NCBI GenBank assembly: GCA_015075425.1
Contig: JABTUL010000001.1
Location: forward strand, 1,550,001 to 1,614,000
Origin: Spirochaetales bacterium
Lineage (GTDB): Bacteria > Spirochaetota > Leptospiria > Leptospirales > Leptonemataceae
Reading direction: 5' to 3'
DNA length: 64,000 bases
The position numbers and the translations under genes are program-made. Of the stretch, positions 18,300 to 23,132 are shown in pieces. The notes under the pieces were generated by a model. It worked only from the letters and a program-made list of their open reading frames with translations. It was not told the DNA's origin and made no database searches. Numbering within the stretch: position 1 is the first letter of the stretch; the number at the start of each line of letters is the position of its first letter.

Positions 18300-18794
18300 A
18301 TGGATCTAATACAGGCCAATAAAGACATTTTGAGCAAAATCACCCGTGCCCTGGATAATCCGGATACGCGAACACGGGGTCAGCAGATTCTGCTTTTTGA
18401 ATCGAGCGAGCAGGATTTTGGAATTTCGATCCTGGAAACCCATGAAATCTTAAAGCCTGTAGCGATCACCAGGCTCCCCAATGTTGAACCGGAAATACTG
18501 GGAATGATCAATCTACGGGGAAACATTATCCCGGTGATTGATCTGGGACGCAAATTTTTTTCAAAATATACCAGGATCACCCCTCTGTGCCGGATCATCA
18601 TCTGCCACCAGAACGAGAGTCACTACTCGGGTTTTCTGGTGGATCGCATCGGTCGTGTCGTCACTCTTGAGGATGACGGCAATGAATGGCCGGAGGTCGG
18701 TGACTACAGTGGCGGCTATTTTCGGGGGGTCGGGCGTAATTCCGGCAGGGTCTATCTGATGCTCGACCTGAGCGTCCTTTTGAGCAGGCAATAA
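18300..18794 (+). CDS. cheW: Chemotaxis coupling protein CheW
   Basis: A 164-residue CheW: two SH3-like beta subdomains with the conserved segments FGISILETHEILKP, LPNVEPEILGMINLRGNIIPVIDL and GFLVDRIGRVV. It links chemoreceptors to CheA under the inner membrane. An N-terminal extension of about 25 residues precedes the fold. The stop codon is immediately followed by the GTG start of cheA, so the two are translationally coupled. Confidence 0.95.
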   Translation: MDLIQANKDILSKITRALDNPDTRTRGQQILLFESSEQDFGISILETHEILKPVAITRLPNVEPEILGMINLRGNIIPVIDLGRKFFSKYTRITPLCRIIICHQNESHYSGFLVDRIGRVVTLEDDGNEWPEVGDYSGGYFRGVGRNSGRVYLMLDLSVLLSRQ

Positions 18795-21710
18795 GTGGAT
18801 CGATACGTTGAGCTTTTCCTGGAAGAAGCCCAGGAACACATTGAAACACTGAGTGAAAGTCTCATTGCTCTGGAACGCGATCCGACCAATGGGCCCATCA
18901 TCCAGGATATTTTTCGGGTCGCTCATACCCTCAAGTCTTCAGCAGCATTCATCCATCAAGACCAGCTTTCGCAGCTGGCCCATAAAATGGAGGATGTCTT
19001 TCAACAGGTAAAGGATCAAACGATGCCGGTTGAAGGCAACCTGATTACGACACTTTTTACCTGTCTGGATCGAATCAAGCAGGCGGTGGCCGGAATTGAA
19101 CAGGGCGATGCCAGTCCGGTAACCTATGATGATCTCTTAATGGCCCTCGACACCCTGCTGGAAAGAAAAGAAAAGGACAGAAACAGGGTTGCCACCCCTG
19201 CCGCAGAAGCTGTCCCTGTGGATTCCCGGAAACAGGAAACATCACAGGCAAGGCCCACTTCCGGTCCTCCCGTTCTGACGGCCACCGAAGAAGAAGCATT
19301 GCGAAACATGGCGCGTGATCAGGCCATTTTTTCCGGCTACGCCCGGCTCGATGCCGATTCACCCATGAAAAACCTGCGGCTCATTTTGCTTCTTGAAAAT
19401 TTGCGCAAGCTGGGCACAATATTTCTTTCGCGGCCTTCCGCGCAGGACCTGGAAGGGGAAAGTCGCTTCTCTGAGATTTACTACATTTTTTATGGCAAAG
19501 TAAACAGGAAAAAATTGATCGCGGCCTCTCAGATTGATATGGTGGAAGAAGTTCGCGTACAGGAGTATCAGAATGCTACCCGGGCTGCCAGTGCTGAAGA
19601 CGGGCGACTGCAACAAAGAAACATAAAAGTTTCATCTGAAAAAATAGATTATTTATTGAATAATGTGGGTGAACTGGTCATCACCAATTCTGGTTTGCAG
19701 AAAATCTATGAAGATCTGGCTGTGGCCCTGGGAGATCACTCCATCCTTGCCGATTTGAAAAACAAAATTGATCAGGCCGGTCGTATCGCTCGCGATCTGC
19801 AGACCGGGATTATGAAAACCCGGATGATTCCCGTTGGGTTGGTGTTCCATCGCTTTATGCGGCCGGCCAGGGATCTGGCACTTGAGCTCGGGAAAAAAGT
19901 GGACATAGAACTGGAAGGAGAAGAGACCGAGCTTGATAAAAACATTGTAGACGCGCTGTCCGAGCCATTCCTCCATCTTCTGCGCAACGCCATCGATCAT
20001 GCCATTGAAAAGCCCGAAGAACGCTTGAGCAAAGGCAAAAAGCCAGCCGGGCAGATCCGATTGTCAGCCTACCAATCCGGGAGCAGCGTTTTTGTTGAGT
20101 TCACCGACGACGGCCGGGGACTCCATCCAGAAATCATTTTGAAGAAAGCCATCGAAAGAAAGCTCATTGAACCGGGAAGCTCACTGCAACCGGCAGAAAT
20201 CCACGAATTGATCTTTCACCCCGGATTCTCCACGGCAGAAACGGTGACCGACATCAGTGGTCGGGGAGTGGGAATGAGCGTGGTAAAGAAGATGGTTCAG
20301 GAGTTCAATGGAAACATCCAGATTCGCAGCGAAATCGATCGTGGTTCTACTTTTGTATTATCTTTTCCGCTGACCCTGGCAATTGTTTCTGCCATTCTTA
20401 TTCATATCGCTGATGAGGCTTACGCCTTCCCCCTGGCCGACGTGGTCGAGACCATCCGTATTGCCGCAGACGAGATAACTACCCTGGAAGGGCGCGATAT
20501 TTTCAATTTGCGTGGCGAAATTCTGCCGGTATTCAATCTGGGTGGTCTTCTGGGTCGTAAAACGGCTCCAGGTTCTGATCTGCCGGTCCTTGTTGTCAAT
20601 GCGGGCAACAGAAAAATCGGCTTCATTGTCGATGGGATGATAGGCAAGCGTGAAATTGTGATCAAGAATCTGGAGAAGAATTTCCGGCAGGTGCCAGGAT
20701 TGATCGGGGCCACACTCATGGGCGATGGTTCGATCATCCCGGTGCTGGATGTAAACGGGCTCTTACAGATGGCCCGCTCGCGTAGCGAAGGCCCACAGAA
20801 GGCTGCCACCGAGCCTGAGTCGGTGGCAGCGCTCCTTTCCTACAATGAAGCCGTTCGTTCAGCGCGTGCTCAGCGGGAGCGGACCGTTAGTGAGCAGATC
20901 AGGCCGCGGACGGCAATGGAACCAAAGCCTGAAGTGCGAGCCGCTTTGATAGAGCCCCGTCCGGAAGCTCCCCCAAAGGATCTGACGGCAGACTCTCCGG
21001 TTAAACGGAATGGTGAACACAGTCATAGTGGGCCTGATGTGGTTGAAGTGCAAAAACAGTTAGATCAGGAAAGAATGGAAAGGTTGGAAAGAGTCCAGGA
21101 AGGAGCCCGCCCAGCGTTCCTTTCCAGCCTCAGCACGCCACAAAAAGTCGCTCTGGATGATTTTCTCAATGCCGGCCTGCTTTCCGCCGGGCAGGTCCTT
21201 TCACAACTTCTGGGCAGCAACGTGGACGTCAGTGTTCCTGATTTGCAGCTTATTGATGACAATCGGATCCAAGAATATCTGCCTCCAGGGGAAATCATTG
21301 TTCTGCATCTTGATACAGCAGAATCCGATTTTCATTTGCAGATCATGCTTGTATTTGACCGGACCATGGCATTACGTGCCGCGGCGGATTTGATGGGCAT
21401 GGGCCAGGATCAAGCATCGCTGGATACCATTCAAACGATGGACCTCGAGTCAGTGCTCAGTGAACTTACCAATATTGTCGGTGCCAGTGTCTTCAATGCC
21501 CTGGCCAATCGACTGGGGGTGGCCATCAAGCCATCCGTTCCTGTGTTTCGTCGCTATGGAGATCCAGCGCCGCTCATCCAGAGTCAGACAGGCGATTATC
21601 GTATTTTGTATGCAGGCGTTGACTTCTTCCGCGAAGGCTCTGAGTTCCTGAGCCGCCTGTTTGTCCTGATTCCGGACGCAGCGTTCCGGAAGATACTGGA
21701 TAAAATTTAA
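18795..21710 (+). CDS. cheA: CheA histidine kinase fused to a CheC-type phosphatase domain
   Basis: A 971-residue chemotaxis kinase. Order: Hpt domain (1-105) with phospho-accepting His44 in RVAHTLKSS; a P2-like ferredoxin-fold domain (165-255); dimerisation helices (275-335); HATPase with N-box LLRNAIDHAIE near 395 and G-boxes DDGRGLHPE and GRGVGMSVV; a CheW-like regulatory domain (525-656); a charged Pro/Glu-rich linker (657-780); and a CheC-like domain (782-971). The CheC part has both active-site helices, with Asp789-x-x-Asn792 and Glu890-x-x-Asn893 matching the D/ExxN signature of CheC phosphatases. It would phosphorylate CheY and CheB and may also dephosphorylate CheY-P. GTG start directly after cheW. 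Confidence 0.9.
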   Translation: MDRYVELFLEEAQEHIETLSESLIALERDPTNGPIIQDIFRVAHTLKSSAAFIHQDQLSQLAHKMEDVFQQVKDQTMPVEGNLITTLFTCLDRIKQAVAGIEQGDASPVTYDDLLMALDTLLERKEKDRNRVATPAAEAVPVDSRKQETSQARPTSGPPVLTATEEEALRNMARDQAIFSGYARLDADSPMKNLRLILLLENLRKLGTIFLSRPSAQDLEGESRFSEIYYIFYGKVNRKKLIAASQIDMVEEVRVQEYQNATRAASAEDGRLQQRNIKVSSEKIDYLLNNVGELVITNSGLQKIYEDLAVALGDHSILADLKNKIDQAGRIARDLQTGIMKTRMIPVGLVFHRFMRPARDLALELGKKVDIELEGEETELDKNIVDALSEPFLHLLRNAIDHAIEKPEERLSKGKKPAGQIRLSAYQSGSSVFVEFTDDGRGLHPEIILKKAIERKLIEPGSSLQPAEIHELIFHPGFSTAETVTDISGRGVGMSVVKKMVQEFNGNIQIRSEIDRGSTFVLSFPLTLAIVSAILIHIADEAYAFPLADVVETIRIAADEITTLEGRDIFNLRGEILPVFNLGGLLGRKTAPGSDLPVLVVNAGNRKIGFIVDGMIGKREIVIKNLEKNFRQVPGLIGATLMGDGSIIPVLDVNGLLQMARSRSEGPQKAATEPESVAALLSYNEAVRSARAQRERTVSEQIRPRTAMEPKPEVRAALIEPRPEAPPKDLTADSPVKRNGEHSHSGPDVVEVQKQLDQERMERLERVQEGARPAFLSSLSTPQKVALDDFLNAGLLSAGQVLSQLLGSNVDVSVPDLQLIDDNRIQEYLPPGEIIVLHLDTAESDFHLQIMLVFDRTMALRAAADLMGMGQDQASLDTIQTMDLESVLSELTNIVGASVFNALANRLGVAIKPSVPVFRRYGDPAPLIQSQTGDYRILYAGVDFFREGSEFLSRLFVLIPDAAFRKILDKI

Positions 21711-21711
21711 T

Positions 21712-22719
21712 ATGAAACAGGTGCTCATCATCGACGACTCTCGCCTGTTTCGCCGGGTGACCGTTGACATTCTGGCAGATCTTCCTGGAGTCCAGGTTCA
21801 TGAAGCGGCCAATGGTGAAGCCGGCCTTGCCGTACTCGAGAAGGAAGCCATTGATCTGGTCGTTCTGGATGTGGAAATGCCGGTCATGGATGGGCTGGAA
21901 ACCCTGCGGATGATAAAGAAAAAGGGACTTGCTGTTCCCGTGATCATGCAAAGCGCGCTTACGCGGGCCGGTGCAGAAATCACTCTGCAGGCTCTGGAAC
22001 TCGGGGCTGCCGATTTCATACCCAAGCCCGCCCAGGGACAGGATCCGATGGAACTGCGGGATCTACTGCTTGAGAAGGTTCGGGCCTTCCTGGGACTGGA
22101 CCAGGCCCCGGAACCGCGCCTGGTCAGAAAAAGGGAGCAGCGGGAATCGCGCTTTGACCTGCTGGTTATTGGTTCGTCAACCGGCGGGCCCCAGGCCCTG
22201 CAGCTTATTTTCCAGCGATTGCCCGCTGATTTCACCATACCGATTCTTGTGGTGCAGCACATGCCCCCGGTTTTTACCCGGGCGTTCGCGGACCGATTGA
22301 ATTCCATTTCCCCGCTGACTGTGATGGAGGCCCGGGATGGTCTGCGGCTTTCCGCCGGGCAGGCCTATCTGGCTCAGGGAGGATTTCATCTGGCATTGAG
22401 CGGTCACGCCGATGACTGTCAGCTGAGGATATCGGATGCGCCGCCGCTTCATTCCCATCGACCCAGCATTGATTTTACCATTTATGATGCCGTATCTATC
22501 TATGGCGGCAGAATCATGGGCCTGATTATGACCGGTATGGGACGGGATGGAGTCGATGGTATGGGAATGATTTATGGTGCCGGGGGGTTGACTCTGGCCC
22601 AGGATGAACCATCGAGTGTCATTTATGGCATGAATCGGCGCGCTGTAGAAGCCGGAGTGATCGATCAGGTGCTGGCTCTGGGGGATATTCCCGAACAACT
22701 GGTCAAACACAGCGCTTGA
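21712..22719 (+). CDS. cheB: Chemotaxis protein-glutamate methylesterase/deamidase CheB
   Basis: A 335-residue response regulator-enzyme. The receiver domain (1-120) has the acidic pair and the phospho-acceptor Asp in LVVLDVEMPVMDG. The methylesterase domain (145-335) has catalytic Ser in IGSSTGGPQ, His in VVQHMPP and Asp in MGRDGVDGM. It removes methyl groups from chemoreceptor glutamates for adaptation. It begins one base after the cheA stop. The matching methyltransferase CheR and the receptors are not in this window. Confidence 0.95.
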   Translation: MKQVLIIDDSRLFRRVTVDILADLPGVQVHEAANGEAGLAVLEKEAIDLVVLDVEMPVMDGLETLRMIKKKGLAVPVIMQSALTRAGAEITLQALELGAADFIPKPAQGQDPMELRDLLLEKVRAFLGLDQAPEPRLVRKREQRESRFDLLVIGSSTGGPQALQLIFQRLPADFTIPILVVQHMPPVFTRAFADRLNSISPLTVMEARDGLRLSAGQAYLAQGGFHLALSGHADDCQLRISDAPPLHSHRPSIDFTIYDAVSIYGGRIMGLIMTGMGRDGVDGMGMIYGAGGLTLAQDEPSSVIYGMNRRAVEAGVIDQVLALGDIPEQLVKHSA

Positions 22720-22772: not shown

Positions 22773-23132
22773 GTGGCCCGAGTATTGATAGTGGATGATG
22801 CTAAGTTTATGCGGACCCTGGTGCGTGAGGCCCTGGAATCTGTGGGCCACGAAATTGTGGGAGAAGCTGAGAATGGCAATGTGGCCATTGAACTCTACAA
22901 ACAACTGCATCCGGATCTCATTACCATGGATATCACCATGCGGGAAAAAGACGGCCTGGACGCTGCTCGTGAAATTCTGGCCCTTGATGGAAGCGCTCGT
23001 GTCATTATGGTAACGGCACTTGGACAGGAAGATTTGCTGGCCCGGGCCATAAAAATGGGTGTGAAAGATTTTGTGGTAAAGCCCTTTCCCCCGGAACGGT
23101 TGCAGGCCGCTGCTAAAAAAGCCCTCTCTTGA
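22773..23132 (+). CDS. cheY: Chemotaxis response regulator CheY
   Basis: A 119-residue single-domain receiver: acidic pair in LIVDDAKFMR, phospho-acceptor Asp in LITMDITM, the switch Thr in MVTALGQ and the conserved Lys in FVVKPF. It carries the signal from CheA to the flagellar switch. A GTG at 22773 is used. It starts 53 bases after cheB and its stop overlaps the scpA ATG (TGATG), tying chemotaxis to the segregation genes in one transcript. Confidence 0.93.
   Translation: MARVLIVDDAKFMRTLVREALESVGHEIVGEAENGNVAIELYKQLHPDLITMDITMREKDGLDAAREILALDGSARVIMVTALGQEDLLARAIKMGVKDFVVKPFPPERLQAAAKKALS

Follow-up and report, generated by a model that had tools for sequence, protein, structure and literature searches.

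The gene at 18795-21710 of the window (the whole stretch of 64,000 nucleotides analysed here) raises the question of whether a chemotaxis kinase, CheA, and a phosphatase acting on its product, CheY-P, have been combined in one protein. We favour this interpretation, with a probability of roughly three in four: judging from its sequence and a structural model, the protein would be a receptor-array CheA carrying a CheC-type CheY-P phosphatase that acts through a single site and is held on a flexible linker.

The gene starts with GTG, abuts the stop codon of cheW and forms a single uninterrupted frame of 971 codons. The features of the locus are as follows.

18300-18794, + strand: cheW, adaptor (Pfam CheW, E = 2.8e-30; open reading frame list)
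18795-21710, + strand: gene for the cheA-cheC fusion, 971 aa from a GTG start (open reading frame list, Pfam; architecture common to 26 members of the order)
18804-19085, + strand: Hpt (P1) domain, residues 4-97, with phosphoacceptor His44 in AHTLKS (Pfam Hpt, E = 2.8e-17; motif position)
19344-19565, + strand: P2 response-regulator-binding domain, residues 184-257 (Pfam P2, E = 1.3e-10)
19617-20771, + strand: kinase core with dimerisation, ATPase and CheW-like (P5) domains, residues 275-659, and N, G1 and G2 boxes (Pfam; motif positions)
20772-21128, + strand: linker, residues about 660-778, charged and of low complexity, variable in sequence among relatives (without a Pfam match)
21129-21707, + strand: CheC-like domain, residues about 779-971 (Pfam CheC, PDB matches, predicted fold with pLDDT 88.3)
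21159-21170, + strand: first-site position, Asp789-Phe-Leu-Asn792, whose acid is not kept by relatives (alignment with T. maritima CheC; column counts)
21462-21473, + strand: second site, Glu890-Leu-Thr-Asn893, with Glu890 and Asn893 present in every one of 63 fused proteins (alignment columns)
21712-22719, + strand: cheB, receiver and methylesterase (Pfam CheB_methylest, E = 5.9e-60; Response_reg, E = 4.2e-25)
22773-23132, + strand: cheY, single receiver domain (Pfam Response_reg, E = 1.3e-28; position kept in relatives from both families of the order)

The order cheW-cheA-cheB-cheY-scpA-scpB is conserved across both families of the order. The kinase part is that of a CheA, with Hpt, P2, dimerisation, HATPase and CheW domains found in that order. 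H-kinase_dim (275-342), HATPase_c (392-527) and CheW (534-659) all score above the Pfam cut-offs, and the motifs (the phosphoacceptor histidine and the N, G1 and G2 boxes) are intact at 43, 395, 438 and 489.

The tail matches the Pfam CheC family at residues 885-918 (E = 8e-7, 29.3 bits against a cut-off of 22), and its CheX score lies below the cut-off (18.5 bits against 27). In a sequence search of the PDB the C-terminal 205 residues matched T. maritima FliY (4hyn, E = 7.9e-6) and T. maritima CheC (1xkr, E = 5.7e-5), in each case over both halves of the tail; Asp789/Asn792 and Glu890/Asn893 align onto the two ExxN motifs of the latter. The sequence-only reading, which had described a standard CheA followed by a CheC domain and whose residue numbers for the motifs are exact, had suggested comparing a predicted structure of the tail with CheC. 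An AlphaFold2 model built from 26 aligned sequences has the CheC fold (mean pLDDT 88.3; TM score 0.79 to 1xkr), in agreement with Pfam and the PDB sequence matches. Foldseek ranked FliY, a haloarchaeal CheC-like protein, CheC and the CheC-CheD complex 2f9z first, with FliM and CheX after them. The Pfam score and the structure match rule out a CheX identity for the tail. A chance fusion or assembly artefact is also ruled out, since 25 further genomes of the order have the same architecture, each on a contig of its own.

How far the fusion extends among spirochaetes was examined in 30 genomes of the order, 48 of the class and 46 of a second class. Matches to the tail were found in 27 of the 30 order genomes, and 26 proteins with the fusion, that of the window and 25 from other genomes, were aligned. 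The fused domain is present in 45 of the 48 class genomes with E values of 5e-50 or better. Of the remaining three, G001 and G002 gave no CheA match and G021, which is 78% complete, has CheAs of 741 and 724 residues only. From Pfam, our first impression was that the long CheAs of family f6 (871-1010 residues) lack the domain, since most members are missed by the CheC model; this had to be discarded, as these proteins end in a CheC domain with ExTN and an intact second site. In the phylum search the second class carries the fusion in 44 of 46 genomes and in all 30 of the good ones, and families f8, f9, f26, f27 and f28 have more divergent forms. In five representatives Pfam found every one of the five CheA domains, and in four of them CheC or CheX as well; L182 (G041, family f6) has neither match and its tail was recognised by alignment only. 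Confinement of the fusion to the order is thereby ruled out, and the proposal that CheA-CheC fusions be sought in other spirochaetes has led to the class, a second class and five further families. The fusion is the rule across large parts of the phylum and merits a biochemical test. CheAs of families f7 and f20 (L186, L187 and L188) have a tail of 75-79 residues past the CheW domain and no CheC domain; these tails are possibly the linker that remained after loss of CheC.

Two active-site helices had been assigned to the tail, and here the alignment separates them. Glu890 and Asn893 of the second are invariant in all 63 fused proteins (26 of the order, 18 more from the class, 19 from spirochaetes outside it), even though identity to the window's domain drops to 17% within the class. 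The first did not stand up. A Glu-x-x-Asn is found at the second site and not at the first, where the other 25 members of the order have Ser (19), Ala (2), Gly (2), Asn (1) or Thr (1) at residue 789; an acid there together with Asn792 occurs in the window's protein alone among the 63. Asn792 is kept in 24 of 26 proteins of the order, in none of the 18 from the rest of the class and in 15 of the 19 from other spirochaetes. The simplest reading of these columns is that there is one working site, that Asp789 is a late or chance substitution and that the first catalytic position has degenerated throughout the lineage. That Asp789/Asn792 and Glu890/Asn893 are both catalytic in the window's protein is a quite improbable alternative. 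The alignment of both motifs with those of T. maritima CheC and the retention of Asn792 within the order speak for it, but the acid is missing from the other members of the order, the pair is unique to this protein and aspartate has a shorter side chain than the glutamate it replaces.

By analogy with the protein families involved, we picture a single-site enzyme working as follows. The P1-P5 part would phosphorylate CheY, as well as CheB, like other CheAs. The single helix with Glu890 and Asn893 would insert into the active site of phosphorylated CheY and speed hydrolysis, as in CheC and CheX, and the cheY product encoded at 22773-23132 would be the substrate of both halves. Tethering of the phosphatase to the kinase would mean that CheY-P is made and destroyed at one place, with fast turnover near the array. 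Catalysis and the role of CheY-P as the substrate are suggested by family membership, and the consequence for signalling is likewise an inference. If the tail is active, a single protein of the receptor array would both make and remove the signal, whereas E. coli and B. subtilis rely on separate phosphatases for the removal (CheZ in the former, CheC and FliY in the latter). This could bear on how far CheY-P reaches in long, thin spirochaete cells.

Some observations count against a phosphatase. The middle domain of FliM shares the fold of the tail and is not known to be a phosphatase, so the fold alone does not prove function; and the tail of the window seems to be the fastest-evolving of its subgroup. 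A non-catalytic domain of the FliM type is nevertheless disfavoured by the invariant Glu and Asn of the second site. The tail might instead be mainly a docking module that keeps CheY-P, CheD or another array protein in place and has hardly any phosphatase activity or none, much like the middle domain of FliM, or CheC when it acts on CheD. The fold is shared with FliM and with CheC in the CheC-CheD complex, CheD genes are present in 43 of the 48 class genomes and the first catalytic position is degenerate, all of which would suit such a role. We nevertheless think it unlikely, as Glu890 and Asn893 are among the few invariant residues, and the Glu and Asn of ExxN are the catalytic residues of CheC and CheX. 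Furthermore, the CheC helix that begins with Asp-Met/Tyr would be the CheD contact, and this helix start, seen in T. maritima and Clostridium CheC, is out of register in the window's protein and its order; most members of the second class do have it. Very improbable, in our estimate, is a tail that dephosphorylates the receiver of CheB or a regulator of another pathway rather than CheY: cheB, with its receiver domain, is indeed the next gene, but PMC10782961 describes both CheC and CheX as phosphatases of CheY, and cheY lies in the same operon.

The single-site CheY-P phosphatase joined to CheA is therefore the reading we retain. The union of kinase and phosphatase in one protein had been put forward from the sequence, and the sequence, the predicted fold and the invariance of Glu890 and Asn893 support it, with the exception of the first of the two supposed active-site helices. 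The built-in off switch proposed with it is plausible. As had been stated, no CheD, CheZ or separate CheC was found within the 64 kb of the window, and the search for CheX gave no match there either. CheZ is also absent from the genome and from all 48 class genomes. Outside the window the genome has a pair of CheX-type genes (G000 C2:305266 and C2:243989), one CheD gene each on C4 and C1, and two further CheAs, 687 and 528 residues long, both without a CheC tail. These CheX and CheD genes mean that off switches other than the fused domain are possible, and the CheX-type genes in particular may supply one.

At L176:6764-9180 (G000:C1 about 2227764-2230180) a 522-residue dimerisation/kinase protein lies beside a separate 284-residue protein with an Hpt-like start; the pair looks like a split CheA, with a CheW-like protein upstream and a CheB-like protein and CheD downstream. 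Stand-alone CheC genes at L123:4844-5897 (G018) and L124:5463-6457 (G028) lie directly downstream of a receiver-like (CheY-type) gene; both are remote from the main operon, and both genomes have the fusion as well.

Among known proteins, T. maritima CheC (1xkr, 2f9z) has the fold and the second ExxN site in common with the tail. It is a stand-alone protein with two ExxN sites; one of these remains in the fused domain, whose helix beyond Pro916 is also different. FliY (4hyn), a CheC-FliN fusion, likewise joins a CheC domain to a chemotaxis or motor part, but it sits at the flagellar motor and the CheC domain of the window on the kinase. CheX (1xko, 1squ; 3hzh with CheY) belongs to the CheC superfamily, as does the tail, and has one ExxN site per chain; it is about 150 residues long and a weaker structural match (query TM about 0.5). 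In Rhodobacter sphaeroides chemotaxis a bifunctional kinase-phosphatase, said to have been described by Porter and coworkers in 2008, reportedly both makes and removes the phosphate of a response regulator; we take this kinase to be CheA3, with a phosphatase part that is presumably not CheC-like.

The architecture is already published for Leptospirae, where CheC or CheX fused to CheA of the F1 class was reported and a dual kinase/phosphatase function was proposed as possible (Berry, Andrianova and Zhulin 2023, PMC10782961). The window's protein, with a CheC domain on a CheA, fits this description in architecture, group and proposed function; the F1 class is taken from that paper for the Leptospirae fusions, and class membership is suggested by relatives in the order (Leptospiraceae/Leptospirales MAGs). 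The bacterial set behind that study comprised 14,796 GTDB v.95 RefSeq genomes in MIST 3.0 and, being drawn from RefSeq, may have missed metagenome-only lineages. Its main text is concerned with Leptospirae only and does not discuss active sites. What our alignments add is the conservation of one of the two sites and a wider spread, into a second class and five families. A literature search mainly outside the subscription journals brought up no other work on CheA-CheC.

In a tree of 60 kinase cores the 41 fused sequences are split from 19 non-fused ones, which include paralogues from the same genomes, on one branch with support of 96/97. A tree of CheC domains, to which seven stand-alone CheC/FliY sequences were added, gives the same split with weaker support (90/91), and the window's order groups with the second class in both trees, which are unrooted and based on sampling of our own choice. 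Since both trees divide fused from non-fused sequences on one branch, the kinase and CheC parts appear to share one line of descent. The pattern is consistent with a single old fusion event, though it is no proof of one, and the fusion is probably older than earlier reported. It is a long shot that one old fusion, now in at least two classes and several further families, created a tethered single-site phosphatase whose activity depends on the state into which the receptors bring the kinase, with the array switching between making and destroying CheY-P.

The CheC domain of the window (21129-21707) has the longest end branch of its subgroup in the CheC tree (1.38) and seems to be evolving faster than its close relatives. 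In the kinase tree L122 (G008), L204 (G007) and L116 (G042) represent a second CheA with a CheC tail; it is divergent and groups separately from the main fused lineage.
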